This document shows positions 41,618-64,000 of a stretch of 64,000 nt of DNA, piece by piece; position 1 is the first letter of the stretch, and each line of letters opens with the position of its first letter. A model generated the notes under the pieces. That model did no database searches, was not told where the DNA came from, and saw only the letters and a list, made by a program, of their open reading frames with translations. The position numbers were made by a program, and so were the translations under genes. The DNA is from Lysobacter sp. yr284. Its GTDB lineage: Bacteria > Pseudomonadota > Gammaproteobacteria > Xanthomonadales > Xanthomonadaceae. The stretch is from positions 248,001-312,000 of the forward strand of contig NZ_FNPT01000003.1 in NCBI RefSeq assembly GCF_900107375.1, given 5' to 3'.

Positions 41618-41618
41618 C

Positions 41619-43040: not shown

Positions 43041-43081
43041 GGGCGGGCGGCGGCGTGGACTGGCGCGCAGCCTGCGGCCGG

Positions 43082-43109
43082 GTATCGCCATCCGCAATCG
43101 TGGCGATAC
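43082..43109. promoter_or_regulatory. Perfect inverted repeat, candidate operator
   Basis: GTATCGCCA, 10 bases, then TGGCGATAC: nine-base arms without mismatch, in the short gap between the FAD oxidase and the divergent regulator. A further GGTATCGATA follows at 43111, so TATCG half-sites recur. A TATGAT -10-like box lies just downstream at 43121-43126. Confidence 0.75.
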
Positions 43110-43160
43110 GGGTATCGATATATGATCCCGACTATCCCGCCACCCGAGTCCCGCGCCGCC

Positions 43161-43925
43161 ATGGCCGAACGCGAACGCCTGCTCGCCGCGCTCAAGCGCA
43201 TCCTCAAGGAACGCGGTTGGCGCTACGCCGACCTCGCCGCCGCGCTGGGCCTGTCCGAGCCCACGATCAAGCGCCTGCTGTCCAACGGCCGCATCGGCCT
43301 GGACCGGCTCGAACAGATTTGCGAGGCGCTCGACATCGACTTCTTCGAACTGGCGCGCAGCGCCCGCGGCAACCGCGACGCGCGCCGCCACCTGAGCCTG
43401 GCGCAGGAAACCGCGCTGGCCGCCGAGCCGCGCCTGATGACGGTGTTCCACCTGCTGTGCCAGGGCTGGCAGAGCGCCGCCATCGGCGCCGACTACGGCC
43501 TGCGCAAGCCCGAACTGGTGCGGCTGCTGGCGCAGCTGGATAAGCTGCGCCTGATCGAACTGCTGCCCGGCGACCGCACCCGGTTGCGGGTGCCGCGCGA
43601 TTTTTCCTGGCGCGACGACGGCCCGGTGCGCGCGCGTTACTTCCAGCTGGCCAGCCGCGAATTCCTCAACCACGGCTTCGACGGCGGCGAGGCGTTCTTC
43701 GCCCTGGAAATACGCGAACTCAGCGAAGCTTCCGCGGCCACCCTGCGGCGCAAGCTCGACAAGCTGGTGGCCGAATTCAAGGAAGCCGCCGATCTCGACA
43801 TCGGCCTGCCGCCGGAGCGGCGGCGCAGCGTCGGCATGCTCGCCGCGAGCCGGCCGTGGGTGTTTTCGCTGGTGGAGAGTCTGCGCGAGGCGCCGTCGGC
43901 GGCGGACAAGCCGCGGCGGCGCTGA
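43161..43925 (+). CDS. XRE-family transcriptional regulator
   Basis: A 254-aa regulator. An N-terminal helix-turn-helix (residues about 3-60, YADLAAALGLSEPTIKRLLSNG) is followed by a winged-helix-like and helical C-terminal domain resembling the DUF4423/TIGR02147 type (FHLLCQGWQ, LIELLPGDRTRLRVP, FFALEIRELSEAS). I choose ATG 43161 because the -10-like TATGAT at 43121 would overlap the alternative ATG at 43122. It probably binds the adjacent inverted repeat and controls itself and the FAD oxidase/methyltransferase operon. Confidence 0.8.
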   Translation: MAERERLLAALKRILKERGWRYADLAAALGLSEPTIKRLLSNGRIGLDRLEQICEALDIDFFELARSARGNRDARRHLSLAQETALAAEPRLMTVFHLLCQGWQSAAIGADYGLRKPELVRLLAQLDKLRLIELLPGDRTRLRVPRDFSWRDDGPVRARYFQLASREFLNHGFDGGEAFFALEIRELSEASAATLRRKLDKLVAEFKEAADLDIGLPPERRRSVGMLAASRPWVFSLVESLREAPSAADKPRRR

Positions 43926-46133: not shown

Positions 46134-47129
46134 TCAGCCGCGCTCGGCGGCGAGGCTGCGTTCCCAGGCCAGCGCGCTGGCGACGATCAGGTCGATGTCG
46201 TCGCAACGCGGCGACCAGCCGAGCACGCGGCGGATCTTCGCCGCGTCGGCGATCAGCGACGGCGCGTCGCCGATCCGGCGCGGATGCTCGACCACCGGGA
46301 TCGGCGCGCCGTGGGCGCGCTCGACCGCGCGCAGCACCTCGCGCACCGACGCGCCGCGCCCGTAGCCGCAGTTGAGCACGATCGACTCGCCGCCCCCGCG
46401 CAGATAGTCCAGCGCGTCGGTGTGCGCGCGCGCCAGGTCGTCGACGTGGATGTAGTCGCGCACGCCGGTGCCGTCCGGGGTGGCGAAGTCGGTGCCGTAC
46501 ACCGCGATGCACTCGCGCTGCCCGGTCGCCACTTCGCAGGCGGCCTTGATCAGCAAGGTGGCGTTGCGGGTGCGGTGGCCGGTGCGGCCGCGGGTGTCGC
46601 TGCCGGCGACGTTGAAGTAGCGCAGCACCGCGTAGCGCAGCCCGCTGGCGGCGGACAGGTCGCGCAGCATCCACTCGCTCATCAGCTTGGACGCGCCGTA
46701 GGGATTGATCGGCGCGGTCGGCGTGTCCTCGCGGGCGATGCCCGAGGCGGGCATGCCGTAGACCGCGGCCGACGAAGAGAACACGAACCGGCTCACCCCG
46801 GCCTGGGCGCAGCACGCCAGCAGGGTGTGGGTGGCGCAGGTGTTGCCGGCGTAGTAGCGCAGCGGGTCGCGCACCGATTCCGGGGCGATGGTGCGCCCGG
46901 CCAGGTGCAGGACGGTGTCGATGTCGTAGTCGCGCAGCACCCGCGCGACGGTGTCGCGGTCGCCGACGTCGCCGATCACCAGTTCGGCGCCGATCACCGC
47001 GCGGGCGTGGCCGGTGCTGAGGTCGTCGAGGACGACGACGCGTTCGCCGCGCTCGGCCAGGTGCAGGGCGACGTGGCTGCCGACGTAGCCGGCGCCTCCG
47101 GTGATCAATATCGGCCTGTTCGCGTTCAA
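46134..47129 (-). CDS. galE: UDP-glucose 4-epimerase (second)
   Basis: A 331-aa GalE-type extended SDR. It has TGGAGYVGSH at residues 10-19, LAGRTIAPESV, SSSAAVYG and YGASK (catalytic Ser, Tyr, Lys), then RYFNVAGSD and GVRDYIHVDDLARAH. It interconverts UDP-hexoses. It is only moderately like the first copy, so this is not a recent duplication. It lies 103 bases after the TylF-type gene on the same strand, possibly its distal partner and possibly supplying a sugar for the biosynthetic region. Confidence 0.87.
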   Translation of the reverse strand: MNANRPILITGGAGYVGSHVALHLAERGERVVVLDDLSTGHARAVIGAELVIGDVGDRDTVARVLRDYDIDTVLHLAGRTIAPESVRDPLRYYAGNTCATHTLLACCAQAGVSRFVFSSSAAVYGMPASGIAREDTPTAPINPYGASKLMSEWMLRDLSAASGLRYAVLRYFNVAGSDTRGRTGHRTRNATLLIKAACEVATGQRECIAVYGTDFATPDGTGVRDYIHVDDLARAHTDALDYLRGGGESIVLNCGYGRGASVREVLRAVERAHGAPIPVVEHPRRIGDAPSLIADAAKIRRVLGWSPRCDDIDLIVASALAWERSLAAERG

Positions 47130-47232: not shown

Positions 47233-47949
47233 CTAGGACGGCGCGGTCTCCGGCAACGGCTTCCTGAGCACGCCGAGCTTGTTGTACATGATCCTGGGCG
47301 TGATGTTGCGCGCGCGCACGAACTCGATGTAGGCCTGGTAGGCGCCGTCCCATTGGTTGCTGGCCGGGTTGCAGTCGTCGACCACGATCACTCCGCCGGG
47401 GCGCAGCATTTCGTAGAGCTCCGGCAAGGCCTTGCGGGTGGGGCGGTAAAGATCGACGTCGAGCAGCACGAACGACAGCGGGCCCAGCGAGGGCAGGTCG
47501 AACTCGTTGATGTCGGCCTCGATCGCCCGCACCCGCCGGATGCGGTTGATGCGCAAGGTCCGCTCGAACCAGTCCTTGCGGTTTTCCTTGAAGTCCTGGT
47601 ACGCGATGCCCTGCTTGCCGCGGTTGTCGGCCTCGAAGCGCACGTCGGATTCGGTGAACCCGCTGAAGGTGTCGATGGCGTAGTAGGGGCGGTCCTGGCC
47701 GACCAGATCGTCGATGTAGTTGTTGAGGAACACCGTGGTGTGTCCGTACTCGCAACCGATCTCGACGATGGCGCCGTCCAGGTCGCGGGTGTCGGACAGG
47801 CACTTGCACATGAAACACAACTGGTGCGCGCTGAACTGGAAGCGATGCTCGGGAAACACGCGCTGTCTGGCGAGTTCGCTGGTGGGGCCGGGCATCGCGT
47901 CGGGCGCGTCGTCCGTGCCGGTGTCGGCGGTGGGGGCTGAGCGGCTCAT
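47233..47949 (-). CDS. TylF/macrocin-O-methyltransferase-family protein
   Basis: A 238-aa class I SAM methyltransferase. Motif I is IVEIGCEYGHTTVFLN near residue 62, and IDTFSGF and LLDVDLYRPTRKAL follow. VIVVDDCNPA near 190 carries the metal-binding Asp pair typical of TylF-like O-methyltransferases. Such enzymes methylate sugars or secondary metabolites. It lies 25 bases after the HlyC-like stop and is likely co-transcribed with it. Confidence 0.85.
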   Translation of the reverse strand: MSRSAPTADTGTDDAPDAMPGPTSELARQRVFPEHRFQFSAHQLCFMCKCLSDTRDLDGAIVEIGCEYGHTTVFLNNYIDDLVGQDRPYYAIDTFSGFTESDVRFEADNRGKQGIAYQDFKENRKDWFERTLRINRIRRVRAIEADINEFDLPSLGPLSFVLLDVDLYRPTRKALPELYEMLRPGGVIVVDDCNPASNQWDGAYQAYIEFVRARNITPRIMYNKLGVLRKPLPETAPS

Positions 47950-47974: not shown

Positions 47975-48472
47975 TCAGCCGCGCGCGGAATGCCAATGCG
48001 GGTCGGCCACGCCCCAGGCGCCGCCGCGGCGGCGCCAGTTCGAGACCTTGCGCGCGGCGCCGTCGGCGCCGCGGTGCAGCGCCTTGATCGAGGACTGGTC
48101 GGCGAACAGGCTGCCCTTGGCGTGGTTCAACAGTTTGCGTTCCAGCCCGGGCAGGGTCACGAAGTCGATCAGCCACAGCGCGTCGCCGTCGGTCCATTCG
48201 GAAGGATGCAGCGGCGCGTCGGGCTGCTCGATCCAGCGACGCTCGGCCTGCGGATTCAGCCATGCCCAGGTCAGGTAGCCCACCGGCATGCTCTGCGCGG
48301 TGTAGAACACCCGGATCTGCCGGGCCATCGCCGCCGGCGCGATCCGGCTGGGCAGGGCGTGCACCGGCCGGTCGCGATGGCGCGCGTGCTGCGCCATCAC
48401 GAACGCGACCGCGCCGATCTCCTTGAGGAAGTCGGCGGAGAGGGAGCGGGGTTCTTCGATAATCGCGATCAC
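47975..48472 (-). CDS. HlyC-type toxin-activating lysine acyltransferase
   Basis: A 165-aa protein matching the HlyC/ApxC family, which transfers a fatty acyl group from acyl-ACP to internal lysines of RTX toxins. His32 (RHRDRPV) corresponds to the catalytic His of HlyC, and Asp103 (WLIDFVTLPG) to its essential Asp. PVGYLTWAWLNP and EWTDGDALW align with HlyC core strands. The start is GTG 48472, decided by GGAGGA nine bases upstream. No RTX protein is encoded in the window, so the target is elsewhere or is something else. Confidence 0.82.
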   Translation of the reverse strand: MIAIIEEPRSLSADFLKEIGAVAFVMAQHARHRDRPVHALPSRIAPAAMARQIRVFYTAQSMPVGYLTWAWLNPQAERRWIEQPDAPLHPSEWTDGDALWLIDFVTLPGLERKLLNHAKGSLFADQSSIKALHRGADGAARKVSNWRRRGGAWGVADPHWHSARG

Positions 48473-48854
48473 CAGCGGTCTTCCTCCATCTGTCCAGCGG
48501 CGCGGGGCCGCGAAGGATCGCGGTCGCGGGTTGCGGCTGCGGCGCCGGTCGCTGCGCGGCCGGGCCTGCGTGGGGACTGCATGTGTACGACGAAAGCTTC
48601 CGTCCGCGAGAGTAATTCAGTCCTCGCCGCAGTGCGAGCGCGATGCGGCCGCGCGTCGTCGCCGTCGCCGTCGCGAGCGCCCGCGCGGCGCGCAGCGCGG
48701 CCTGCCGCGATGCGGCTTGACCGGACATGCGGCCGTGCTAGAGTCGCGACGCGCTCGGGGGGAGCGCACCGACGCGCATTGGCTGGCTGTCGGCCGCGAC
48801 CGCGCAGGCGCTTCGCCGTCGGGGTCCGTTGGCTTTCATAGGAGGAAGGCGGGC
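48473..48854. other. Divergent intergenic region
   Basis: 382 bases between the HlyC-like gene and the next methyltransferase. No supported gene. It holds the ribosome-binding site for the HlyC-like gene at 48482-48487 and a good sigma-70-like promoter at 48717-48744 reading right. Confidence 0.65.
48717..48744 (+). promoter_or_regulatory. Sigma-70-like promoter
   Basis: TTGACC (-35, 5 of 6), 16 bases, then TGC-TAGAGT (an extended -10, 4 of 6 in the hexamer). Transcription would start near 48751, giving a leader of about 100 bases before the methyltransferase at 48855. Confidence 0.55.
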
Positions 48855-49628
48855 ATGTCGTCGGCGCCGTTGACGTTCGATCGCTATATGCGGGAGCACT
48901 ACGACGCCGTCCCCGGCATGTCGTCGGCGTTCGCCGCGCAGGTGTGCGCGGCGACGATGCGGCTGCAGCGCGAACGCGGCTGGGGCGGCGACGCGGCCGA
49001 GATCGGCGCGTTCGAAGGCCGTTTCCTGATCGCGCTGGCGCTGGGCCTGCAGCCCGGCGAGCGGGCCCTGGCGATCGATCTCTACGACTGGCCCGACATC
49101 CACGTCGGCCTGCGGCTGCGCGAGCGGCTTGAACGCCTGGGCCTGGCCGATCGGGTCGAGATGATCTGCGCCGACAGCCGCCGGCTCGCGCCACAACGCC
49201 TCGGCGTCGGCGAGGGCGGGCGCGCGATCCGCTTCTTCCATATCGACGGCGACCACCAGCCGCAATCGCTGGCGCGCGACCTGGCGCTGGCGTTCGCGTG
49301 CATGGCGCCGTGGGGCGTGATCTGCCTGGACGACATGCTCAGCCCGGCCTATCCGGAACTGGGCATCGCCGTCGCCCAGGCGCTGCAGGCCGATCCGCAA
49401 TGGGCGGTGTTCTGCGTCGTCGACCGCGAGGACATCGCCGCGGCGGCGAAGTTCCTGCTGTGCCGGCAGGACTATGCGCAGGCCTACGGCCAGGCGTTGG
49501 CGCACGCGTTCGCCGACCGGGTCTGGGGCATGCAGGCGCAGTTCGCCCGGCACCGCGCGCTGGTGTTGGCGCCGCGCCCGCGGCTGGCGCGGTTCAATCC
49601 CGGCGGGAGCGTCGACCTCGTTCAATGA
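48855..49628 (+). CDS. Class I SAM-dependent methyltransferase (TylF/CmcI-like)
   Basis: A 257-aa methyltransferase. Motif I is AAEIGAFEGRFLIALAL near residue 47, followed by an acidic ALAIDLYDW. FFHIDGDHQPQSLARDL and GVICLDDMLSP are the usual metal- and SAM-site regions of Methyltransf_24-type enzymes. The strong ribosome-binding site GGAGGAAGG just upstream decides ATG 48855. It may modify the peptide made by the NRPS-PKS downstream, though 850 bases separate it from that operon. Confidence 0.8.
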   Translation: MSSAPLTFDRYMREHYDAVPGMSSAFAAQVCAATMRLQRERGWGGDAAEIGAFEGRFLIALALGLQPGERALAIDLYDWPDIHVGLRLRERLERLGLADRVEMICADSRRLAPQRLGVGEGGRAIRFFHIDGDHQPQSLARDLALAFACMAPWGVICLDDMLSPAYPELGIAVAQALQADPQWAVFCVVDREDIAAAAKFLLCRQDYAQAYGQALAHAFADRVWGMQAQFARHRALVLAPRPRLARFNPGGSVDLVQ

Positions 49629-50477: not shown

Positions 50478-51260
50478 ATGCGGAACCAGCGCTCTTACAT
50501 CATCTGCACCACCATGCGCAGCGGCAGCACGATGCTGGCCAGCGGCTTGCGCGAGAGCGGTGTGGCGGGGCGCCCGGACGAATACTTCGCGCCGCCGGTG
50601 CGGCTGCCGCAGGCGCAGGTGTTCGACATGGACCCGGCGCGCTACCGCGAACTGCTGCAGGAGCAGCGCCGCGCCAACCCGGCCGAGCGGGTGCTGCGCG
50701 AAATCATGCAGGCCGGCACCAGCGACAACGGCGTGTTCGGGGTCAAGATCCACTTCCAGCGCCCGTTCTCGGACTTCCACAACGCGGTGGAAGTGCTGCA
50801 GGAATATTTCGGCGACAAGACCGCCTCGCCGCATGAATTGTTCAGCCGCGCATTCCCACGGCTGTCCTATATCTGGCTGCGCCGCAGCGACCGGGTCGCG
50901 CAGGCGGTGTCGCTGTTCAAGGCGATCAAGAGCAGCGAGTTCGTGCGCGTGGCCGGCAGCACCGATGCGGTGATCCCGGTCGGCGCCGACGAATTCGACT
51001 TCGCCCGCATCCGCCGCCTGGCCGACTGGCTGCAGAGCGGCGACGACGGCTGGCGGGCGTTCTTCAAGCGCCACCGGATCGAGCCGATGGTGATCGACTA
51101 CGAAGACCTCGCCGCGCATTACGAACCGACCCTGCGTTCGGTGCTGGACTACCTGGGCCTGTCCTCGCAGTGCCCGACGATCCAGGGCACCCGCCACCGC
51201 CGCCAGGCGGACGAGATTTCCGAACAGTGGGCGGCGCGCTATCGCGAGATGCATGCGTGA
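50478..51260 (+). CDS. Stf0-family sulfotransferase
   Basis: A 260-aa sulfotransferase that transfers sulfate from PAPS. The 5'-phosphosulfate loop (CTTMRSGSTML, residues 10-20) is followed by GRPDEYF and GVKIHF, and LSYIWLRRSDRVAQAVSLFKA is the 3'-phosphate-binding part. These match the Stf0 (trehalose sulfotransferase) family, and DYEDLAAHY near the C-terminus fits too. Its TGA overlaps the GTG of the giant NRPS-PKS gene, so it is part of that biosynthetic operon and probably sulfates the product. Confidence 0.88.
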   Translation: MRNQRSYIICTTMRSGSTMLASGLRESGVAGRPDEYFAPPVRLPQAQVFDMDPARYRELLQEQRRANPAERVLREIMQAGTSDNGVFGVKIHFQRPFSDFHNAVEVLQEYFGDKTASPHELFSRAFPRLSYIWLRRSDRVAQAVSLFKAIKSSEFVRVAGSTDAVIPVGADEFDFARIRRLADWLQSGDDGWRAFFKRHRIEPMVIDYEDLAAHYEPTLRSVLDYLGLSSQCPTIQGTRHRRQADEISEQWAARYREMHA

Positions 51261-54200
51261 GCGAAGACGCGCACGTTCCGCCTCCCGCCAGCGATGCGTC
51301 CGCGCCCGGCCCGGTCGATGAGGCCGCCGCCGCGCCGTCGCTGGCCGACCGCTTCGACGCCCAGGCCGCGCGTTCGCCGGACGCGGTCGCGCTGGTGTGC
51401 GAAGACGAGCGCGTCACCTATGCCGAACTGCAGGCGCGCGCGAACGAACTGGCGCGCTGGCTGCAGCAGGCCGGGATCGGGCCGGGCAGCATCGTCGGCC
51501 TGTGCCTGGAGCGTTCGCCGCTGCTGGTGGTGGCCACGCTGGCGGTGTTGCGCGCCGGCGCGGCCTACCTGCCGATCGATCCGCGCACGCCGCAGGCCCG
51601 CATCGAGTTCATGCTCGAGGACTGCGGCGCGCGCCTGTTGCTGACCCAGGCCGAGCTGTGCGCGCACGCGCAACCGCCGGGGCGCGAAGTGCTGCGCCTG
51701 GACCGCGAGTGGGAGCGGGTGCGGCGCGAAGCCGCGGCGGCGCCGCCGCGCGGTTTCGCCGCCGGCGCGCTGGCCTATGTGATCTACACCTCCGGCTCGA
51801 CCGGCCAGCCCAAGGGCGTGCTGGTGCCGCAGGCCAACGTGACCGCGCTGTTCGACGCGGCGCAGCCGCGCTTCGGCTTCCACGCCCAGGACGTGTGGTG
51901 CCTGTTCCATTCCTATGCCTTCGATTTCTCGGTCTGGGAGCTGTGGGGCGCGCTGCTGCACGGCGGCCGGCTGGTGCTGGTGCCGGCGCAGGTCGCGCGC
52001 GATTCGCAGGCCTTCTACGAACTGGCCAGCCGCGAAGGCGTCACCGTCCTCAACCAGACCCCGTCGGCGTTCGCCCAGTTCGCCGCCGCCGACCAGGCCG
52101 CGCGGCTGCCGCTGCGGCTGCGCTGGGTGATCTTCGGCGGCGAGGCGCTGCGCTTCGGCGAACTGCGCGGCTGGTTCGAGCGCCACGGCGACGCGCGGCC
52201 GCAGTTGGTCAACATGTACGGCATCACCGAGACCACCGTGCACGTCACCGAGCGCGGCGTCGCCGCGGCCGAGGCGGTGCGGGCGCCAGCGAGCCTGATC
52301 GGAGCGGCGCTGCCGCACCTGCGCACGCATATCCTCGACGACGCGCTGCGGCCGGTCGCCGACGGCGAGGCCGGCGAGTTGTGCGTGTCCGGCGCCGGCC
52401 TGGCCTGGGGCTATCTCAACCGCGCCGGACTGACCGCCTCGCGCTTCGTCGCCAGCCCGTTCGCGCACGGCGAGCGGCTGTACCGCAGCGGCGACCTCGC
52501 GCGGCGCAGCGCCGACGGCGACATCGAATACCTCGGCCGGCTCGACCAGCAGGTCAAGCTGCGCGGCTTCCGCATCGAACTGGGCGAGATCGAGGCCGCG
52601 CTGCTGCGCCACCCCGGCGTGCGCCAGGCGGTGGTCGCCAAGCGCGAGAGCGACGGCCAGCCGCGCCTGGTCGCCTACGTGGTGGCGGAGCCGGCCCAGG
52701 CCGGCGAGCGCGACGCGCGCGCCGACGAGAGCGTCGGCCAATGGCAGGCGCTGTACCAGGACACCTATCAGCCCGGCGAGGACGATTGCAGCCCGAGCTT
52801 CGTCGGCTGGCACAGCAGCTATACCGGCGCGCCGATTCCCGAACCGCAGATGCGCCAGTGGCTCGACGCGACCGCGCAGCGGGTGCTGGCGCGCGGGCCG
52901 CAGCGGCTGCTGGAGATCGGCTGCGGCGTGGGCCTGGTGCTGCAGCAGCTGGCGCCGCGTTGCCGCCGCTACGTCGCCACCGACCTGTCGCCGGCCGCGA
53001 TCGCGCGCCTGCAGCGCTGGGTCGGCGCGGCCGCCGGCCTGGAGCACGTGCGGCTGACCGCGCAGCCCGCCGACGATTTCGCCGGCCTGGACGAAGACTT
53101 CGACACCGTCGTGCTCAATTCGGTGGTGCAGTATTTTCCCGGCGCCGACTACCTGCTCGACGTCCTGCGCCGGGCCAGCGAACGGGTCGCGCCGGGCGGC
53201 CGCATCTTCATCGGCGACGTGCGCGACCACGATCTGCTCGAAGCCTTCCACGCCTCGGTGCAGTTCGCCAAGGCCAACGAGGCGACCGGCGCGGAGCGGA
53301 TGCGCGCGGCGATCGAACGCGGCATGCGCCAGGAAAAGGAACTGCTGCTGGCGCCGGCGTTCTTCCGCGCGCTGCCGCAGTGGCTGCCGGCGATCGGCGG
53401 CGTCGAGATCCTGCTCAAGCGCGGCGATGCGCGCAACGAATTGAACCAATACCGCTACGACGTGTGGCTGCACGTCGGACCGCAGGCGCCGCAGCCGACG
53501 GCGACGCCGTGGCAGCCCAGCGGCGCGGACGCGCTGGCCGAACTGGAAGCGCACCTGGGCGCGCAGCGGCCGGCGCGGCTGAGCGTGGAACTGCCCAACG
53601 CGCGCCTGCAGCCGGACCTGCAGCGGCTGGCGCTGCTGCGCGAGGCCGATCCGGCGCTGAGCTGGGGCGAACTGTGCGAACGCGCGCCGGCGCCCACCGA
53701 CGGCGTCGAGCCCGAAGCCTTGTGGCAGCTGGGCGAGCGCCTGGGCTACGAGGTGAGCATCGCCGGTTCGCACACGCGTCCGGGCCATCTTCGCGCGAAT
53801 TTCGTCGATCCGCGCGCGCCGGCGGCCGGGCAGGGCGAGCCCGCCCAGGCCGACATTCTCTCCGCCGAGGCGGGCGCCGGCACCGATCCGCGCCGCTACG
53901 CCAACGACCCGCTCGCCGCCGCGGCCCAGCACGCGTTCGTGCGCAGCCTGCGCGAACACCTACGCGCGATCCTGCCCGAACACATGCTGCCGGCGGCCAC
54001 GCTGACCCTGCCGGCGCTGCCGCTGACGGTCAACGGCAAGGTCGACCAGGCGCGGCTGCCGGCGCCGGAAGAACGCCCCGACGTCGCCGACTACGCCGAG
54101 CCGCACACCGACCTGCAGCGCCGCCTGGCCGGCATCTTCGCCGAGGTGCTGCGGCTGGACCGGGTCGGCCTGCACGACAGTTTCTTCGAACTCGGCGGCC

Positions 54201-57200
54201 ATTCGCTGCTGGCGATGCGGGTGGTCGCCCAACTGCGCGCGCAACTCGGCGTCGAACTGCCGCTGCGCGCCTTGTTCGAGCATCCGACCGTGGCCGGCCT
54301 GGAGCGCGAAGTCGCCGCGGCGGCCGGCAGCGCGCCCGCGGCGCCGCCGTTGCTCGCACGCGAGCAGCGCGGGCCGGCCGAGTTGTCGTTCGCGCAGGAA
54401 CGGCTGTGGTTCCTCGAACAACTCGGCACCGTGGGCGCGGCCTATCACGTGCCGCTGGCGTTCCGCATCCGCGGCCCGCTGGCGGTGCCGGCGCTCGGCG
54501 CGGCGCTGGCGCAGTTGCTGCAGCGGCACGAGATGCTGCGCACGCGCTTCGTGCTCGACGGCGAGCAGCCGCGGCAGACGGTCGACCCGGCGCCGCAGGA
54601 GCTATTGGAATTCGAAGACCTGAGCGCGCTCGATCCGGCCCGCGCGCAGGCGCGCACGGACGCGCTGCTGCAGGCCGAAGCGCAGCACCGCACCGACCTG
54701 GAACGCGGCCCGCTGTTCCGCGCCAGGCTGGCGCGGCTGGGCGCGCACGAGCACGTCCTGATCCTGGCCGCGCACCACATCGCCGCCGACGGCTGGTCGC
54801 ACGCGGTGATGCTGCGCGAACTCGGCGCGCTGTACGCCGCGCACGCGGGCGCCGCGGCTGAGGCATTGCCGCCGGCGCAACTGCAGTACGCCGACTACGC
54901 CGCCTGGCAGCGGCAGTGGCTGCAAGGGCCGCTGCTGGCGCAGCAACTGCAGTACTGGACCGCGCAGCTCGCCGGCGCGCCGGAACTGGTGGCGCTGCCG
55001 ACCGACCGGCCGCGGCCGCAGGTCGCCAGCTTCCGCGGCGGCATCCATCGCTTCGAACTGCCGGCCGCGCTCGCGCAGCGGTTGCCGGCGTTCGCGCGCG
55101 AGCGCGGCGCCACCCCGTTCATGGTCCTGCTGGCCGGGTTCCAGGCGCTGCTGGCGCGTTGGGGCGGCGGCGACGACATCGTCATCGGCACGCCCACCGC
55201 CGGCCGCACCCACCGCGACACCGAGCCGCTGGTCGGGCTGTTCATCAACACCCTGGCCCTGCGCGCCCGGGTCGATGCGCAGGCCGGCTTCGCCGAATTG
55301 CTGGCCCAGGCCAAGGACACCGCGCTGGCGGCGTTCGCGCACCAGGACGTGCCGTTCGAGCGCGTGGTCGCCGAACTCAAGCCGCACCGCGACCTGTCGC
55401 GGCAACCGCTGGTGCAGGTGATCTTCGCCCTGCAAAACACCGCGCCGGCGACGCTGCGGCTGCACGGCGCGGGCGTGGAACGCATCGACTGTCCCAGCAG
55501 CACGTCCAAGTACGACCTGACCTTGAACGTGATCGAGTCGGGCGAGCGGCTCAGCGCCGAGATCGAATACGCCAGCGACCTGTTCGACCCGGCCACCGTC
55601 GAGCGGCTGGCGCAGATGTACGCCACGCTGCTGGACGCGGCGATGGCCGAGCCGGCGCGGCCGCTGGCGCGCTTGCGCCTCGGCGTCGCCGCACCCGCGG
55701 CCGCACCAAAGCCGTCCGCCGCCGCGACCGTGTGCGATCTGTTCGCCGCCCAGGCCGCGCGCACGCCGCATGCGCCGGCGCTGGAATCGCCGACCGCGCA
55801 GTTGAGCTACGCCGAACTGCAGCGACGCGCGGAGCGGATGGCGCGGCAGCTGCGCCGGCAAGGCATCGGCGCGGGCGACCTGGTCGCCGTGGCCAGCGAC
55901 GGCGATGTCGCCACGTTCGTCGCCTTGCTCGCCACGCTCAAGGCCGGCGCGGCGTATCTGCCGATCGATCCGCACGCACCCGCGCAGCGCCTGAACCATC
56001 TGATCGAAGACGCGCAGCCGCGCCTGATCCTGGCCGACGCCGCTGCGCTCGAGGGCTTGCCGCCGTCGCCTGCGCAGCGGCTGTCCTTCCGAGAGTGCGA
56101 GAGCGACGCCGACGAATCGGCGCCGTGGCCGGCGCCGGCCGCGGACGATCTGGCCTACGCGATCTACACTTCCGGTTCGACCGGCGCGCCCAAGGGCGTG
56201 CTGGTCGAGCACCGCGGCCTGCGCGAGTTGGCGCTGGCGCAGATCCAGCGCTTCGCCATCGCACCGCACAGCCGCGTGCTGCAGTTCGCCTCGCTCGGCT
56301 TCGACGCCTCGGTGTCGGAAGTGTTCACCGCCTGGTGCAGCGGCGCCTGCCTGTGCCTGCCCGGCGGCGGGCGCCTGCTCGCCGGCGACGAACTGGCCGC
56401 GACCCTGCGCGAACGCGCGATCACCCACGTCACCCTGCCGCCGAGCGTGGTGCCCGGGCTGGTCGAGGCCGGCGGCGCGGCCACGCTGCAGACCCTGGTG
56501 GTGGCCGGCGAAGCCTGTCCCGCCGCGATCGTGCGCAGCTGGCCCGAGCCGGTGCGCTTCATCAACGCCTACGGCCCGACCGAGGCCACGGTGTGCGCCA
56601 CCACCCACGACTGCGACCGCGCCGACCCGCGCGATCCGCCGGTCGGCCGGGCGCTGGCGCACGCGCCGGTGTACGTGCTCGACGATGCGCTGCAGCCGGT
56701 GCCGGCCGGCGTGGTCGGCGAGATCTTCATCGGCGGCAGCGGGGTGGCGCGCGGCTATCGCGGACGCGCCGCGCTGACCGCCGAACGCTTCCTCGCCGAT
56801 CCCTTCGCCGGGGCCGGCGCACGCATGTACCGCAGCGGCGACCGCGGCCGCCTGCGCGCCGACGGCGCGCTCGAATTCCTCGGCCGCCTCGACCGCCAGC
56901 TCAAGGTTCGCGGCTATCGGATCGAGCCGGGCGAGATCGAAGCGGCCTTTCTGCGCGACGAACGCATCGCCCAGGCCCACGTATTGGCCCAGGGCGAACT
57001 CGACGGCCGCAGCCTGGCGGCGTATGCGGTCGCCGCGCCGGGACGCACGCTGGACGCCGACGACGCGCTGGCGGCGCTGCGCACGCGGTTGCCGGCGCAC
57101 CTGGTGCCGTCGACGCTGGTGGTGCTGGAGCGTTTCCCGCTGACCGCGCACGGCAAGATCGATACGCACGCGCTGCCGCAGGCCGGCGTGGCCGCATCCG

Positions 57201-60200
57201 CAGGCCGCGTCCACGTCGCCGCGCGCACCGCGACCGAGCGATTGCTGGCCGCGATCTGGCGCGAAGTGCTCGGCTGCCGCGAACCCGATGTGCGCGACCG
57301 TTTCTTCGACCTTGGCGGCCATTCGCTGCTGGCCACGCGCGCGGTCGGCCGCATCCGCCGCGCGGCTGCAGTCGAGCTGAGCCTGCGCGAGTTCTTCGCC
57401 GCGGCCACCTTGGAAGACCTGGCCCGCAGCGTCGACGCCGCGCGCGGCCTCGGCGCCTCCTCGGCGGCGGCGCCGCTGCGGCCGGTGCCGCGCGCGCCGC
57501 GCCTGCCGCTGTCGCCGGCGCAGCGCAGCCTGTGGACCGCGGACCGGCTCGGCGCCGCTGGTGCCGCCTACAACATGCCGCTCGCATTGCGCGCGAGCGC
57601 GCGCATCGACGTCGAGGCCTTGCAGCGCGCGCTGGACGAACTCGAACGCCGCCACGAAAGCCTGCGCACCGCCTTCCTCAGCGACGGCGACGGCCTCTAC
57701 GCCGCGATCCAGCCGGCCCAGGCCGTGGCCCTGGAACTGCACGATCTGAGCGCGCTGGCGCCGGCCGAGCGCGAGGCGCAGGCCGCGCGCCTGCGCGAGC
57801 GCGACATGCGCCGCCGCTTCGACCTCGGCGCCGGCCGCTTGCTGCGCGCCAGCCTGCTGCGGCTGGCCGAGGACGAGCATCGGCTGACCCTGACCACCCA
57901 TCACATCGCCGCCGACGGCTGGTCGGTCGCGCTGCTGGCCGACGAACTGCGCGCGCTGTACGCGGCCTTCGCCGCCGGCCGCGCCTCGCCGCTGCCGGAA
58001 CCGCCGTTGCAGCACGCCGACCACCAGGCCTGGCAGGACGCGCGCCTGGACGAAAGCGCGCTGGACCGGCTCGCGCAGCGCGCCGGCGAACGCCTGCTCG
58101 GCGCGCCGACGGTGCTGTCGCTGCCGGCCGACCGCGCGCGTCCGCCGGCGCAGTCCTACCGCGGCGCGCTGCACCGTTTCGTCCTGCCGCAAGCGCTGCA
58201 CCGCCAACTGCTGGAGCTGGGCGCGCAACGCGGCGCGACCTTGTACATGACCTTGCTGGCGGGGTTCGGCGCGCTGCTGTCGCGGCTGTCCGGCGCCCGC
58301 GACCTGCTGCTCGCCTCGCCGCTGGCGTTGCGCGCCGAACCGGGCCTGGAGCGCGTGGTCGGCCCGCTGCTGGACACCGCGGTGTTGCGCCTGGACCTGC
58401 GCGACGATCCGGGCTTCGCCGAGCTGCTCGCGCGCGCCCGCGCCGCAACCCTCGACGCCCACGACGGCCAGGACCTGCCGTTCGAGCGCCTGCTCGCGCA
58501 GCTGCGCCCGGCCCGCGACCTGGCCCGCCAGCCGCTGGCCCAGGCGCTGTTCTCGCTGCAGAACTATCCCGCCGCGCAAGACCAGGACGCGGCGCTGTGG
58601 CAGCGCGAGCGCAGCCCGTGGAGCCACGCCAAGTACGATCTGTCGCTGTACGTGGAAGAGACCGCGCAGGGCCTGGCCTGCGAGTGCGAATACGCCACCG
58701 ACCTGTTCGACGCCGCGACGGTCGAACGCTGGTGCGCGCAATGGGCGAGCCTGCTCGCCGGCGCGGTGGCCGATCCGGACACCCGCGCCAGCCGCCTGCC
58801 GCTGCTCGACGCCGACGAGCGCCGGCGCCTGCTGGCGGAGTACAACGACACCGCGCGCAGCGGCTACGACCGGGCGTCGATCCCGGCGCTGGTCGCCGAA
58901 CAGGCGCGGCTGCGGCCGCACGCCGTTGCGGTCGGCTGCGGCGAACGCACGCTGAGCTACGCCGAACTCGACCGCCGCAGCAGCGCGTTGGCGCGTCGCC
59001 TGCGCCGCGCCGGCGCCGGCCCCGGCGAACGGGTGGGGCTGTGCCTGGAGCGCTCGGTCGAACTCAGCGTCGCTTTGCTCGCGGTGCTCAAGTCCGGCGC
59101 GGCCTACGTGCCGCTGGACCCGGCCTATCCGCAGCAGCGCCTGGACTACATGGTCGCCGACAGCGGCCTGGGCTGGGCGGTGTGCGACCGCGCCAACGCC
59201 GCGCGCCTCACCGGTTCGCTCGCGCCGCAGCGCGCGATCGCCGTCGAGGATGTCGCCGAAGACGCAGCCGCGGCGTCGGCCGATGAAACACGGGAATTCG
59301 AGCGCAGCGCCGACAGCCTGGCCTACGTCATCTACACCTCCGGCAGCACCGGCCGGCCCAAGGGCTGCGCGATCGCCGACCGCGGCCTGCTGAACCTGTT
59401 GCACTCGCTGGCCGACCGTTTCGGCGTCGGTCCCGACGACACCTTGCTGGCGGTGACGCCCTACAGCTTCGACATCGCCGGCCTGGAATTGCTGATGCCG
59501 CTGCTGCGCGGCGCGCGCGTGCAGATCGCCGCGGCCGCGGAACTGCGCGATGCGCAGCGCCTGGCGCGCAGCATCCGCGAACTGCGCCCGACCCTGATGC
59601 AGGCGACGCCGGCGACCTGGCAGATGCTGCTGCGCGCCGGCTGGCGCAACGACAGCGGCATGCAGGTGCTGTGCGGCGGCGAAGCCTTGCCCGAGACGCT
59701 GCGCACCGCGCTGGCGCAAGGCGCGGATGCGTGGAACCTGTACGGCCCGACCGAGACCACGATCTGGTCGACGCTGGACCCGATCGCGGCGGACGCGCCG
59801 CCGGCCGCGGGCGGCTCCTGCATCGGCCGGCCGCTCGCCAATACCCGCGTCTACGTGCTCGACGCGGCGATGGCGCCGGTGCCGGTCGGCATGGAAGGCG
59901 ACCTCTACATCGGCGGCGACGGCGTCGCCTGCGGCTATTGGAACCGGCCGGCGCTGACCGCGCAGAGTTTCATCGCCGATCCGTTCTCGGCCGGCGGCAG
60001 GATCTACCGCACCGGCGATCGCGCGCGCTGGCGCGCCGACGGGCGCCTGGACTATCTCGGCCGCGCCGACGCGCAGGTCAAGCTGCGCGGCTTCCGCATC
60101 GAGCTGGGCGAAATCGAAACCGCGCTGGCCCGGCACCCGCAGGTGGACCTGTGCGCCTGCGCGGTGAGCCGCGAGGGCGAGGCGCAGATCGTCGCCGCCT

Positions 60201-63200
60201 GCGTGCCCGCGGCCGGCGCCGTGTTGCCGTCGCGGCGCAAGCTGCAGGAGCATCTGCGCGCGAGCCTGCCGGAGCACATGATCCCGGTGGCCTTCGCCGC
60301 GGTCGCGGCGTTGCCGCTGACCGCCAACGGCAAGATCGACCGCACCGCCGTCGCCGCCTTGCGCGCGGCGGAACCGGCGACGCCGCCGCAGTCGCAGCCA
60401 GCGCCGGCCGGGCAGGGCGGCGATCCGCTGCCGCGCCTGCTGGCGCTGTGGCGCGAAACGCTCGGCCGCGACGACGTCGCCATCGACGAGGGGTTCTTCG
60501 AGCAGGGCGGGACTTCGCTGCTGGCGGTGACCCTGGCCGAGCGCATCGCCAGCGAATTGCAGCCGGGGTTCGAAGTGACCTCGCTGTTCGAATTCGGATC
60601 GATCGCGCGGATCGTCCGCCACCTGCAGGCGCAGGCCCCGGCCGCGCAGCCGTCCGCGCCCGCGCTCGCCGACCCGACGCCTGCGGCGCCGGCCGCCGCG
60701 GCGGGGATCGCGGGCGAACCGGCGATCCCGGCCTATTACGACGACGCCGTCGCCATCGTCGGCATGTCCTGCGCGTTCCCCGGCGCGCGCGACCACGACG
60801 AGTTCTGGGACAACCTGCTGCGCGGCCGCGAAAGCATCGAGCGCATTCCCGACGCGGAACTGCGCGAACTCTGCGTGCCGGCGCAGGTGCTGGCCGATCC
60901 GGCCTACGTGCCGGTGCGCTCGGACCTGGCCGGGCGCGATCTGTTCGACGCCGATTTCTTCAACGTCTCCGAGCGCGATGCGCAGTTGATGGACCCGCAG
61001 CTGCGGCTGCTGCTGATGCATGCCTGGCGGGCGATCGAGGACGCCGGCTACCGGGCTGGCGATCTCGCCGACACCGCGGTGTTCGCCACCGCCAGCAACA
61101 GCGCCTATCACGCCCGCCTGCTGGCCACGGCGCCGGCTTCGGCGCAGAGCATCGAGCAATACGTGGGCTGGATCATGGCCCAGAACGGCACCCTGCCGGC
61201 GGTGATCTCGCACAAGCTGGGCCTGCGCGGCCCGAGCCTGTTCGTGCATTCCAACTGCTCGTCCTCGCTGACCGCGCTGGACCTGGCGCGGCGCCGGCTG
61301 CTGGAAGGCGAGTGGCGCCATGCCCTGGTCGCGGCCGCGCGCGTGGCCAGTTTCGAGGGCGCCGGCTACGTCCACCAGGATGGCATGAACTTCTCCAGCG
61401 ACGGCCGCCTGCGCGCGTTCGACGCGGCCGCCGACGGCGCGGTCGGCGGCGAGGGCGTGGCGGTGCTGCTGCTCAAGCGCGCGCGCGACGCCATCGCCGA
61501 CGGCGACCATGTCTATGCGCTGCTGCGCGCCAGCGCCGCCAACAACGACGGCGGCGAGAGCGCCGGTTTCTACGCGCCCAGCGTCGCCGGGCAACGCGCG
61601 GCGATCGAGCGCGCGCTGGCCGCCTCGCGCATCGATCCGGCTACGATCGGCTATGTCGAGGCGCACGGCACCGGCACGCCACTGGGCGACCCGATCGAGG
61701 TCGCGGCGCTGTCGCAGGCCTACGGCCGCCACACCCAGGCGCGCCAGTTCTGCGGCATCGGCTCGGTCAAGACCAATATCGGCCACCTCGACACCGCCGC
61801 GGGCATGGCCGGTTGCATCAAGGCCGCGCTGAGCCTGTCGCGCGGGACGATCCCGGCGACCCTGCATTTCCGCACGCCCAATCCCGCGCTCAAGCTCGAA
61901 CAATCGCCGTTCTTCGTGGTCGACAAGGCGCAGCCGTGGCAGGGCGCGCGGCCGTACCGGGCGGCGGTCAGCTCGATGGGCGTCGGCGGCAGCAACGCGC
62001 ACGCAATCCTGGAAGAGTGCGCGGCGCTCGACGGCGGCGATTCATCAGCGCCGGGCCCGTGGCTGTTCCCGCTGTCGGCGCGCGATCCGCAGTGCCTGCG
62101 CGCGATGGCCCAGCGCCTGCTCGATTTCCTCGCCGGCGCGCCGTCGCTGCCGCGGCTGGCCTACACCCTGCAGACCGGGCGCGAGCCGATGCCGTACCGG
62201 CTGGCGATCCTCGCCGCCGATGCGCAGCAATTGCAGGCCGGGCTGCGCGGCTGGCTGCAAGGCGACGCCAGCGCCGGCGTGCACAGCGGCCACGCCGCCC
62301 GCGCGGCCGCCGGCGCGACGCGCGAGGCCTCGGCTGCGGTCGATCCCGCCGACGCCGAACTGCAGGCCGCGCTGGCGCGTTGGGCGGCGCTGGGCCGCTA
62401 CGAACAACTCGCGGCGCTGTGGGTCGGCGGATTCGCGTTCGACTGGCGGGCGCTGTATGCGACCGGCGCGCCGCGTCGGATCAGCGCGCCGGCCTATCCG
62501 TTCAACCCGCGCCGCTTCTGGCTCGACTCGGCCGATGCGCCGGTCGCGGGCGCCGCAGCGGTAGCGGCCCCCGTCGTCGCCCCCGTGGACAACGCGGTAT
62601 CGCCGCGGCTGTTCGCCGAACGCTGGGACCGCGTCGCCGAAGCGGGCGCGGACTGGCCCCATCGCCGCCATCTGGTGCTGTGCGATTTCCCTGCGGATTC
62701 GCCGCTCGTGCGCGCCGTCGGCGAGCGCGCCGGCGCCGAGGCGACGGTGCACGTCCTGGCGCGCAGCGGCGCGGCGATCGGCCAGCGCTTCGCCGAACAT
62801 GCCGCGGCCCTGATCGAGCGGTTGCGCGAGGCCGCGGCGGCGGCTCCGGCCTTGCTGCAACTGGTGGTCCCCGGCGACGACGACGGCGCGTTGTGCGCCG
62901 CGCTGGCGCCGTTGCTGCTCAGCGCCAAGCGCGAGTACGACCGGCTCGAAGTGCAGACCATCCGCCTGGACGCGCACGCCGCGCCGCAGGCGGCCGCGGC
63001 GCAACTGTTCCACCCGGTGCCGTCGGCCGCGCGACAGGTACGCGTCGTCGACGGCGCCGCGCGCACGCGCCGCTTCGTCGCCTTGCCCGCGCCTGCGGCC
63101 GCGGCCGCGCCGTGGCGCGACGGCGGCCGTTATCTGATCGCCGGCGGCGGCGGCCGGCTCGGCCTGCTGCTGGCCCGCGCCATGGCCGCGGACCTGCGCA

Positions 63201-64000
63201 GCGGCGCGATCGTTCTGGCCGGGCGCAGCGAGCCGACGCCGGCGCTGGCCGCCGAGCTGGCGGCGCTGGGTTCGGCCGCGCTGCGGGTGGAGTACCGCCG
63301 CGCCGACGTCGCCGATGCAGCACAGGCGCAGGGCTTGCTCGACGAAATGCGCGCGCGCCACGGCGGCATCGACGGGATCGTGCACGCGGCAGGCGTCCTC
63401 GACGACGGCTACCTCGCGCGCAAGCGCGCGGCGCAGGCGCAGGGCGTGCTCGCGCCCAAGGTCGCCGGCCTGGACAACCTCGACCGCGCCCACGGCGCGG
63501 CGCCGCTGGAGTTCCTGATCTGCTTCGGCTCCATCGGCGGCGCGCTCGGCAGCGCCGGGCAGGGCGACTACGCCGCCGCCAACGGTTTCATGCGCGCCTT
63601 CGCCGCGCTGCGCAACGCCCGCGCCGGACGCGGCGAGCGCCAGGGCCGCGCCTTGTGCATCGATTGGCCGTACTGGCGCGACGGCGGCATGCGTCTGTCG
63701 GCGCAGGCGCAAGCCGAACTCGTCCAGGCCGGGTTGGCGCCGCTGCAGGCCGAGCAGGGCCTGTCGGCGCTGCGCCAGGCCTGGGCCAGCGGCGAATCCT
63801 GCGTGACGGTGCTGGTGGGCGAAGAGCGCGCCGTGGGCGATTTGCTGGATTCGTTCGAGCGCCGCGAGCCGGTCGCGCCTGCGCTGCCCGAAGCGGCGCT
63901 GCCGACCGCAGCGACGCCAGCGGCCCATGCCGATCTTTCCGCGCGGGTCCTGCAGCGCCTGGTCGAGGTGTTCGCCGAGGTGTCGAAGATCGCGCCGGCG
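51257..64000 (+). CDS. Hybrid NRPS-PKS megasynthase (partial, continues past the window)
   Basis: One open frame of 4248 codons without a stop. Domain order with approximate residues: A1 26-930 with a methyltransferase inserted at about 490-740; T1 (Ser983); C1 1043-1475 (HHIAADG at 1173-1179); A2 1493-1970; T2 (Ser2023); C2 2083-2512; A3 2537-3025; T3 (Ser3087); KS 3163-3600 (Cys3334, His3470, His3510); docking-like region to about 3755; KR about 3780-4190 (Ser4092, Tyr4105); start of an ACP. There is no first C domain, so module 1 starts the chain, and no epimerase is seen. Start GTG 51257 overlaps the sulfotransferase stop. It assembles a peptide-ketide; the product is not recognised. Confidence 0.93.
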   Translation, partial: MSEDAHVPPPASDASAPGPVDEAAAAPSLADRFDAQAARSPDAVALVCEDERVTYAELQARANELARWLQQAGIGPGSIVGLCLERSPLLVVATLAVLRAGAAYLPIDPRTPQARIEFMLEDCGARLLLTQAELCAHAQPPGREVLRLDREWERVRREAAAAPPRGFAAGALAYVIYTSGSTGQPKGVLVPQANVTALFDAAQPRFGFHAQDVWCLFHSYAFDFSVWELWGALLHGGRLVLVPAQVARDSQAFYELASREGVTVLNQTPSAFAQFAAADQAARLPLRLRWVIFGGEALRFGELRGWFERHGDARPQLVNMYGITETTVHVTERGVAAAEAVRAPASLIGAALPHLRTHILDDALRPVADGEAGELCVSGAGLAWGYLNRAGLTASRFVASPFAHGERLYRSGDLARRSADGDIEYLGRLDQQVKLRGFRIELGEIEAALLRHPGVRQAVVAKRESDGQPRLVAYVVAEPAQAGERDARADESVGQWQALYQDTYQPGEDDCSPSFVGWHSSYTGAPIPEPQMRQWLDATAQRVLARGPQRLLEIGCGVGLVLQQLAPRCRRYVATDLSPAAIARLQRWVGAAAGLEHVRLTAQPADDFAGLDEDFDTVVLNSVVQYFPGADYLLDVLRRASERVAPGGRIFIGDVRDHDLLEAFHASVQFAKANEATGAERMRAAIERGMRQEKELLLAPAFFRALPQWLPAIGGVEILLKRGDARNELNQYRYDVWLHVGPQAPQPTATPWQPSGADALAELEAHLGAQRPARLSVELPNARLQPDLQRLALLREADPALSWGELCERAPAPTDGVEPEALWQLGERLGYEVSIAGSHTRPGHLRANFVDPRAPAAGQGEPAQADILSAEAGAGTDPRRYANDPLAAAAQHAFVRSLREHLRAILPEHMLPAATLTLPALPLTVNGKVDQARLPAPEERPDVADYAEPHTDLQRRLAGIFAEVLRLDRVGLHDSFFELGGHSLLAMRVVAQLRAQLGVELPLRALFEHPTVAGLEREVAAAAGSAPAAPPLLAREQRGPAELSFAQERLWFLEQLGTVGAAYHVPLAFRIRGPLAVPALGAALAQLLQRHEMLRTRFVLDGEQPRQTVDPAPQELLEFEDLSALDPARAQARTDALLQAEAQHRTDLERGPLFRARLARLGAHEHVLILAAHHIAADGWSHAVMLRELGALYAAHAGAAAEALPPAQLQYADYAAWQRQWLQGPLLAQQLQYWTAQLAGAPELVALPTDRPRPQVASFRGGIHRFELPAALAQRLPAFARERGATPFMVLLAGFQALLARWGGGDDIVIGTPTAGRTHRDTEPLVGLFINTLALRARVDAQAGFAELLAQAKDTALAAFAHQDVPFERVVAELKPHRDLSRQPLVQVIFALQNTAPATLRLHGAGVERIDCPSSTSKYDLTLNVIESGERLSAEIEYASDLFDPATVERLAQMYATLLDAAMAEPARPLARLRLGVAAPAAAPKPSAAATVCDLFAAQAARTPHAPALESPTAQLSYAELQRRAERMARQLRRQGIGAGDLVAVASDGDVATFVALLATLKAGAAYLPIDPHAPAQRLNHLIEDAQPRLILADAAALEGLPPSPAQRLSFRECESDADESAPWPAPAADDLAYAIYTSGSTGAPKGVLVEHRGLRELALAQIQRFAIAPHSRVLQFASLGFDASVSEVFTAWCSGACLCLPGGGRLLAGDELAATLRERAITHVTLPPSVVPGLVEAGGAATLQTLVVAGEACPAAIVRSWPEPVRFINAYGPTEATVCATTHDCDRADPRDPPVGRALAHAPVYVLDDALQPVPAGVVGEIFIGGSGVARGYRGRAALTAERFLADPFAGAGARMYRSGDRGRLRADGALEFLGRLDRQLKVRGYRIEPGEIEAAFLRDERIAQAHVLAQGELDGRSLAAYAVAAPGRTLDADDALAALRTRLPAHLVPSTLVVLERFPLTAHGKIDTHALPQAGVAASAGRVHVAARTATERLLAAIWREVLGCREPDVRDRFFDLGGHSLLATRAVGRIRRAAAVELSLREFFAAATLEDLARSVDAARGLGASSAAAPLRPVPRAPRLPLSPAQRSLWTADRLGAAGAAYNMPLALRASARIDVEALQRALDELERRHESLRTAFLSDGDGLYAAIQPAQAVALELHDLSALAPAEREAQAARLRERDMRRRFDLGAGRLLRASLLRLAEDEHRLTLTTHHIAADGWSVALLADELRALYAAFAAGRASPLPEPPLQHADHQAWQDARLDESALDRLAQRAGERLLGAPTVLSLPADRARPPAQSYRGALHRFVLPQALHRQLLELGAQRGATLYMTLLAGFGALLSRLSGARDLLLASPLALRAEPGLERVVGPLLDTAVLRLDLRDDPGFAELLARARAATLDAHDGQDLPFERLLAQLRPARDLARQPLAQALFSLQNYPAAQDQDAALWQRERSPWSHAKYDLSLYVEETAQGLACECEYATDLFDAATVERWCAQWASLLAGAVADPDTRASRLPLLDADERRRLLAEYNDTARSGYDRASIPALVAEQARLRPHAVAVGCGERTLSYAELDRRSSALARRLRRAGAGPGERVGLCLERSVELSVALLAVLKSGAAYVPLDPAYPQQRLDYMVADSGLGWAVCDRANAARLTGSLAPQRAIAVEDVAEDAAAASADETREFERSADSLAYVIYTSGSTGRPKGCAIADRGLLNLLHSLADRFGVGPDDTLLAVTPYSFDIAGLELLMPLLRGARVQIAAAAELRDAQRLARSIRELRPTLMQATPATWQMLLRAGWRNDSGMQVLCGGEALPETLRTALAQGADAWNLYGPTETTIWSTLDPIAADAPPAAGGSCIGRPLANTRVYVLDAAMAPVPVGMEGDLYIGGDGVACGYWNRPALTAQSFIADPFSAGGRIYRTGDRARWRADGRLDYLGRADAQVKLRGFRIELGEIETALARHPQVDLCACAVSREGEAQIVAACVPAAGAVLPSRRKLQEHLRASLPEHMIPVAFAAVAALPLTANGKIDRTAVAALRAAEPATPPQSQPAPAGQGGDPLPRLLALWRETLGRDDVAIDEGFFEQGGTSLLAVTLAERIASELQPGFEVTSLFEFGSIARIVRHLQAQAPAAQPSAPALADPTPAAPAAAAGIAGEPAIPAYYDDAVAIVGMSCAFPGARDHDEFWDNLLRGRESIERIPDAELRELCVPAQVLADPAYVPVRSDLAGRDLFDADFFNVSERDAQLMDPQLRLLLMHAWRAIEDAGYRAGDLADTAVFATASNSAYHARLLATAPASAQSIEQYVGWIMAQNGTLPAVISHKLGLRGPSLFVHSNCSSSLTALDLARRRLLEGEWRHALVAAARVASFEGAGYVHQDGMNFSSDGRLRAFDAAADGAVGGEGVAVLLLKRARDAIADGDHVYALLRASAANNDGGESAGFYAPSVAGQRAAIERALAASRIDPATIGYVEAHGTGTPLGDPIEVAALSQAYGRHTQARQFCGIGSVKTNIGHLDTAAGMAGCIKAALSLSRGTIPATLHFRTPNPALKLEQSPFFVVDKAQPWQGARPYRAAVSSMGVGGSNAHAILEECAALDGGDSSAPGPWLFPLSARDPQCLRAMAQRLLDFLAGAPSLPRLAYTLQTGREPMPYRLAILAADAQQLQAGLRGWLQGDASAGVHSGHAARAAAGATREASAAVDPADAELQAALARWAALGRYEQLAALWVGGFAFDWRALYATGAPRRISAPAYPFNPRRFWLDSADAPVAGAAAVAAPVVAPVDNAVSPRLFAERWDRVAEAGADWPHRRHLVLCDFPADSPLVRAVGERAGAEATVHVLARSGAAIGQRFAEHAAALIERLREAAAAAPALLQLVVPGDDDGALCAALAPLLLSAKREYDRLEVQTIRLDAHAAPQAAAAQLFHPVPSAARQVRVVDGAARTRRFVALPAPAAAAAPWRDGGRYLIAGGGGRLGLLLARAMAADLRSGAIVLAGRSEPTPALAAELAALGSAALRVEYRRADVADAAQAQGLLDEMRARHGGIDGIVHAAGVLDDGYLARKRAAQAQGVLAPKVAGLDNLDRAHGAAPLEFLICFGSIGGALGSAGQGDYAAANGFMRAFAALRNARAGRGERQGRALCIDWPYWRDGGMRLSAQAQAELVQAGLAPLQAEQGLSALRQAWASGESCVTVLVGEERAVGDLLDSFERREPVAPALPEAALPTAATPAAHADLSARVLQRLVEVFAEVSKIAPA
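51332..54325 (+). other. NRPS module 1: A(Thr)-MT-T, loading module
   Basis: The A domain carries YVIYTSGSTGQPKG (near 51777). Its pocket residues read D-F-W-N-I-G-M-V-H-K when aligned by eye to GrsA, identical to the published threonine code. A SAM methyltransferase (LLEIGCGVG near 52909) is inserted between motifs A8 and A10, the usual place of N-methyltransferases, so N-methyl-threonine is expected. The carrier Ser is in GGHSLL at 54203. Confidence 0.85.
54384..57420 (+). other. NRPS module 2: C-A(Tyr)-T
   Basis: The condensation domain has an intact HHIAADGWS. The A2 pocket residues read D-A-S-T-V-A-A-V-C-K, identical to a published tyrosine code and close to the phenylalanine code of GrsA. 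The carrier Ser is at 57323. The absence of an epimerase predicts L-configuration. Confidence 0.83.
57503..60620 (+). other. NRPS module 3: C-A(Gly)-T
   Basis: The condensation domain has an intact HHIAADGWS near 57900. The A3 pocket residues read D-I-L-Q-L-G-L-I-W-K, matching a published glycine code. The carrier motif is GGTSLL (Ser at 60515), different from the GGHSLL of T1 and T2, perhaps because it hands over to a KS. Confidence 0.83.
60745..64000 (+). other. AT-less PKS module: KS-KR-(ACP)
   Basis: The KS has its active-site Cys in HSNCSSSL (61256), with HGTGTP and NIGH histidines. After NAHAILEE comes a segment of about 160 residues ending in YPFNPRRFWL, as found after KSs of trans-AT PKSs, and no acyltransferase GHSxG motif. 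The KR has GGGGRLG, Ser/Tyr/Asn catalytic residues and an LDD motif (63398) of B-type ketoreductases. An ACP begins at about 63930. Confidence 0.8.

Follow-up and report, generated by a model that had tools for sequence, protein, structure and literature searches.

A trans-AT polyketide–nonribosomal peptide hybrid cluster of Lysobacter sp. yr284 most likely starting with N-methylthreonine

A 64,000-nucleotide window of the Lysobacter sp. yr284 genome (bases 248001-312000 of contig 29; genome 6.25 Mb, 46 contigs) very probably carries, as judged from its domain content, the loading end of a trans-AT assembly line that would make a polyketide–nonribosomal peptide hybrid and appears to be intact. 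Lysobacter species are studied as biocontrol bacteria and as a source of antibiotics. The initial annotation of the window had described its last gene as an NRPS-PKS predicted to begin with (N-methyl)Thr-Tyr-Gly-ketide. That reading of the gene, here gene 1, was correct, whereas the whole locus had been understated: the trans-AT cluster spans about 62 kb, from galE to DinB. We regard it as a well-supported orphan cluster, a well known type of system for whose product we found no report. In biological terms it adds another orphan assembly line and does not represent a new kind of system.

Gene 1 begins without a condensation domain

The frame of gene 1, opening with the GTG at 51257, stays open through the end of the window and stops on the same contig at window-equivalent position 70207, confirming that the gene continues beyond the window. 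Pfam counts three A domains, two C domains, one inserted methyltransferase, a KS and a KR in the visible part, and Pfam together with domain profiles gives the order A-MT-T-C-A-T-C-A-T-KS-KR with the methyltransferase within the first A unit (Table 1). The complete gene encodes the modules A(Thr)-MT-T, C-A(Tyr)-T, C-A(Gly)-T, KS-KR-ACP, KS-KR-ACP and KS-ACP. The insertion of a methyltransferase into the first A domain was confirmed by the Pfam order and by alignment to the structure 5wmm, and the expected passage from the Gly module to a ketosynthase by the KS that follows T3.

The start codon of gene 1 overlaps the stop codon of the upstream sulfotransferase gene as GTGA in all four genomes that carry the cluster. 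A mis-called start hiding an N-terminal C domain is ruled out by this overlap, so the missing front C domain is real for the gene 1 protein, and the frames scanned on either side of gene 1 showed no C domain. The Pfam order and the conserved overlap thus agree with the earlier reading of a first A domain with no preceding C domain. ARAGORN also called a tRNA-Arg (acg) at 62366-62457 (+) in the KS-KR linker, a probable false positive lying inside the coding frame.

Table 1. Coordinates of cluster features within the window
Feature	Position	Strand	Remarks
galE-like UDP-glucose 4-epimerase, left end of conserved block	46134..47129	-	TIGR01179 408 bits, cut-off 262; adjoins cluster in 4/4 genomes
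Class I (O-)methyltransferase	48423..49628	+	Methyltransf_24; weak PDB match, putative O-methyltransferase, E 0.0006
Stf0-type sulfotransferase, overlaps NRPS start	50478..51260	+	PF09037 147 bits; PDB 1tex
NRPS-PKS gene 1, visible part	51257..64000	+	open frame; whole gene to window-equivalent 70207
A1 domain, part before insertion	51353..52522	+	pocket DFWNIGMVH (Thr)
Methyltransferase inserted in A1	52706..53449	+	probable N-methyltransferase
T1 carrier domain	54125..54307	+	profile
C2 condensation domain	54377..55678	+	
A2 domain	55742..56872	+	pocket DASTVAAVC (presumably Tyr)
T2 carrier domain	57251..57427	+	
C3 condensation domain	57509..58789	+	
A3 domain	58892..60049	+	pocket DILQLGLIW (Gly)
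T3 carrier domain	60467..60625	+	
KS of module 4, after Gly module	60740..62020	+	Cys-His-His present
KR of module 4	63125..63676	+	LDD motif; Ser-Tyr-Asn present
ACP of module 4	63959..64000	+	cut by window end

Two further megasynthases complete a trans-AT assembly line

The remainder of the cluster, named in the initial annotation as the next thing to obtain, was fetched and added two more megasynthases, located downstream on the same contig, together with accessory genes. The line totals four NRPS and eight PKS modules, 12 on three proteins. Gene 2 encodes C-A(Phe)-T, KS-DH-KR-cMT-ACP-ACP, KS-DH-KR-ACP and KS-ACP-ACP, and gene 3 encodes KS-KR-ACP and KS-DH-KR-cMT-ACP-ACP-ACP. Integrated AT domains (Acyl_transf_1) were sought in gene 1 as far as the window shows it and in 20 overlapping segments covering the remainder of the line, which has eight KS domains; none was found. 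A stand-alone AT encoded downstream scores 274.8 bits against the fabD model (cut-off 260.9), also matches PF00698 and has counterparts in the three relatives. RhiE-like linkers follow the KS domains. The locus is a trans-AT PKS–NRPS hybrid. The KS after Gly and the KS after Phe pair at 59% identity and share 37-40% with the other six, as expected for KS domains that accept amino-acyl chains. No C-terminal TE was found in gene 3.

The adenylation pockets and the inserted methyltransferase point to N-methylthreonine as starter

Pocket residues were read from an A-domain alignment at nine of the ten positions, the tenth (Lys517) being left out. At these positions the alignment returned the first three pockets given in Table 1, in agreement with the earlier assignment to Thr, Tyr and Gly, and DAWTIAAVC for the fourth A domain, in gene 2. 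The second assignment depends on DASTVAAVC being, as we take it, a Tyr code; a literature search found no published record of it as a code. The A1 pocket is printed as a Thr code in the literature, which likewise prints DILQVGLIWK of DhbF1, one residue off the A3 pocket, as Gly, and DAWTIAAV as a Phe code for Planktothrix aeruginosins, in which Phe is present in the product. The Thr and Tyr pockets are identical in all four genomes and the Gly pocket in three, Xanthomonas maliensis having Met for Leu. The Phe pocket is also the same throughout (three genomes by script, the fourth by eye).

Compared with the PDB, the inserted methyltransferase matches 5wmm best (E 2.5e-55; next match 1.3e-8), and among the best 60 of the 101 chains matched, only 5wmm has a best stretch that runs across the entire A-MT-A unit. 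Gramicidin synthetase chains outscore it overall, on the A domain and carrier. The PDB title of 5wmm is only 'NRPS'; we take the structure to be TioS of thiocoraline biosynthesis, a backbone N-methyltransferase, and because of this presumed identity the starter is most likely N-methylthreonine. The two systems have in common a methyltransferase inserted in an A domain and a single stretch that aligns over A-MT-A, while the present locus differs in its Thr pocket, its starter position lacking a C domain and its Gram-negative trans-AT context.

Alternatively, the inserted domain could act on the side-chain oxygen of threonine, or twice on its nitrogen, and yield an O-methyl-Thr or N,N-dimethyl-Thr starter. 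We consider this rather unlikely given the best match to a presumed N-methyltransferase and its span over A-MT-A. The hydroxyl of threonine is indeed free, as is the amino group of a starter residue, which makes double methylation of the latter possible; KtzH of kutzneride biosynthesis O-methylates the threonine side chain. Furthermore, PMC12283262 names DFWNIGMVHK as one of several Thr codes where it speaks of N-methyl, N,O-dimethyl and other modified moieties, tying such codes to several products of methylation. N-methylthreonine remains our preferred starter.

The cluster is conserved in four genomes of the family

To chart the distribution of the cluster, a family sample of 395 genomes was searched with the methyltransferase segment (E 1e-60), giving 13 matches in 11 genomes, four of them (including the window) at 57-100% identity and nine at 40-44%. 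Four of the 395 genomes carry the cluster: that of Lysobacter sp. yr284, one other genome of the same genus (G293), Lysobacter enzymogenes ATCC 29487 (NZ_FNOG01000005.1) and Xanthomonas maliensis LMG 27592 (NZ_NSET01000042.1). In order-wide and phylum-wide samples (398 genomes each, E up to 1e-70) no match exceeded 45% identity among the matches listed, except that of the own genome. The sulfotransferase occurs in three of 20 genus genomes (E 1e-40), the same three Lysobacter. A related methyltransferase segment with 42% identity lies elsewhere in the yr284 genome, in a 7,412-aa frame (C32:1233410-1234513).

The galE-to-DinB block is kept in all four genomes. To the left, the ten other genes called at 37-51 kb have counterparts in the stretches fetched from G293 and in none of the other fetched stretches. 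On the right side of DinB the alignment continues for a further 0.9 kb or so in X. maliensis (72% identity) and for 1.25 kb in G293 (90%), so the block may extend slightly past DinB; farther right the yr284 sequence is unusable, as described below. The L. enzymogenes and X. maliensis clusters have the same three megasynthases and module order, with aligned identities to the present megasynthases of 77-81% and 64-67%, respectively. Profiles built from the domains of the window genome recover an equal domain order in all four, except that gene 2 of X. maliensis has one ACP less. Outside the block, an adjacent TonB-dependent receptor, leucine-carboxyl-methyltransferase-like gene and FAD-binding protein (38497-43673, -) are matched in G293 but in neither of the stretches fetched from L. 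enzymogenes and X. maliensis. A TylF-like macrocin O-methyltransferase adjoining galE (47233-47949, -) is matched, among the three relatives, only in G293.

The Cys-His-His triad is present in 32 of 32 KS domains (eight per genome in four genomes), and the KR Tyr in 24 of 24 KR domains. The KR Ser is found in 20 of 24, the exceptions being the module-8 KR of gene 2 in each of the four genomes, where Ala replaces it and the DH and cMT of the module are retained. Reduction and dehydration at module 8 are doubtful without this Ser, and the exact scaffold is consequently uncertain. All 12 DH domains contain the HxxxGxxxxP motif and 11 the second DH motif, which is missed in X. maliensis gene 3.

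Gene 1 has a dN of 0.054 and a dS of 0.209 against G293 (ratio about 0.26), and of 0.284 and 0.895 against X. maliensis (about 0.32), dN values below dS that are indicative of purifying selection. Its KS domains are better conserved than the inter-domain stretches. As called in the four genomes, genes 1 and 2 have frames of 5,346-6,377 aa, and the gene 3 frame measures 3,456-3,643 aa. The altered module-8 KR might suggest a degenerate relic in place of a working line, a reading made very improbable by these long frames in four genomes, the intact KS triads, the invariant Thr and Tyr pockets and a dN well below dS.

The cluster has relatives without a reported product

The HSAF and polycyclic tetramate macrolactam clusters of Lysobacter combine one iterative PKS module with one NRPS module. 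The present cluster resembles them in being a hybrid PKS-NRPS of the same genus and differs in having twelve modules without ATs on three proteins. A close match to a characterised cluster, named in the initial annotation as evidence that would speak against novelty, did not appear: neither the literature on the organisms and on an N-methylthreonine start nor a genome-contig scan yielded a characterised cluster or compound that matches. The scan, which used exact short peptide patterns, returned two related loci, those of L. enzymogenes and X. maliensis, and no known product for either was found in the literature. No matching cluster was found in the accessible parts of PMC6113372, PMC7930024 and PMC4657364. 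When a plasmid collection was compared with modules 4 to 6, none of the 1280 records obtained reached 60% identity, and a single one covered at least 80% of the query.

A 2024 survey describes three uncharacterised hybrid PKS-NRPS clusters that each occur in at least two Lysobacter genomes; two of the three are trans-AT (PMC11451712). One of the survey clusters may be the present one, which the trans-AT pair resembles as hybrids common to several Lysobacter genomes with no known product. The earlier label 'unrecognised' therefore holds for the product within the literature and genome-contig searches and perhaps not for the cluster, given the survey and the relatives in L. enzymogenes and X. 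maliensis. It is unlikely that the product is an already described compound whose cluster is absent from the collections searched. Many papers lie outside the literature searched; against this, literature aimed at the organisms and the start unit contained no such compound, and the two related loci led to no product.

Neighbouring genes suggest a decorated and exported product

Several genes of the block could act on the assembled chain. For the methyltransferase upstream of the sulfotransferase (Table 1), alignment with the three relatives does not begin until residue 125-139; its true start is probably near 48800-48840. The sulfotransferase also matches a trehalose 2-sulfotransferase model, with a score under the model cut-off. 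Besides these, the block encodes an alpha/beta hydrolase with a GHSLG motif, a PF11316 glycosyltransferase-like protein, an aldo/keto reductase, the DinB-family protein, a Cupin_8/JmjC-like protein distantly similar to JMJD5, and exporter genes for an ABC ATPase and two FtsX/MacB-type permeases. A 454-aa frame (L011:15803-17167) initially listed as a gene of its own was dropped in favour of the FtsX permease frame in the same place (L011:15843-17045).

In the proposed pathway, threonine would be activated and N-methylated on module one and then coupled to Tyr and Gly, after which three malonyl units would extend the chain. Incorporation of Phe would come next, and then that of another five malonyl units, of which two would be C-methylated. 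Since gene 3 has no TE, the separate alpha/beta hydrolase is a candidate for releasing or cyclising the chain. The sulfotransferase, the glycosyltransferase-like protein (perhaps fed by GalE), the methyltransferase and the JmjC-like protein may then decorate it, and the ABC/MacB-type exporter would secrete the product. Release, glycosylation, sulfation and hydroxylation are inferred from neighbouring genes only. The presence of sulfotransferase, glycosyltransferase-like and oxygenase-like genes suggests that the product is extensively decorated. A strictly collinear linear acid would be C43H58N4O12 with a computed mass of 822.405 Da before decoration, a guide only in view of the module-8 KR.

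Tentatively, and with somewhat less than even confidence, the product may be the first of a new chemotype, N-methyl-Thr-Tyr-Gly-polyketide-Phe-polyketide, probably cyclised and bearing an Stf0-sulfated sugar, made by a small number of Lysobacter and one or more Xanthomonas. Whatever its structure, the product is easy to target by labelled-precursor LC-MS owing to the clear amino-acid signature of the cluster.

A T-poor stretch lies to the right of the cluster

Thymine is nearly absent from the plus strand over about 11.4 kb with sharp edges, at window-equivalent positions of about 109,000-120,400 (contig about 357000-368400; about 1000-12400 of fetched stretch L012). T makes up roughly 0-6% of bases there, compared with 10-22% around it. 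At the edge of the stretch identity to G293 drops from 95% to about 63%, and within it 96% of A, 85% of C, 53% of G and 14% of T are kept among aligned sites. If each site were given the alphabetically first of two unrelated bases, the shares kept would be 100, 85, 52 and 16%, respectively. This one-way pattern fits an alphabetical choice, which argues for an artefact of the assembly or record, most simply one in which two superimposed sequences, or ambiguity codes, were reduced to the first letter. The window was divided into 256 bins of 250 bases; no T-poor bin occurs among them or in the fetched yr284 stretch outside the block of missing T, so the window and the cluster are unaffected. Long frames are open on both strands of the T-poor stretch because stop codons are rare there, and the minus-strand frames right of DinB (own22 to own27), which seemingly have relatives in place, were set aside as lying inside this probable artefact.
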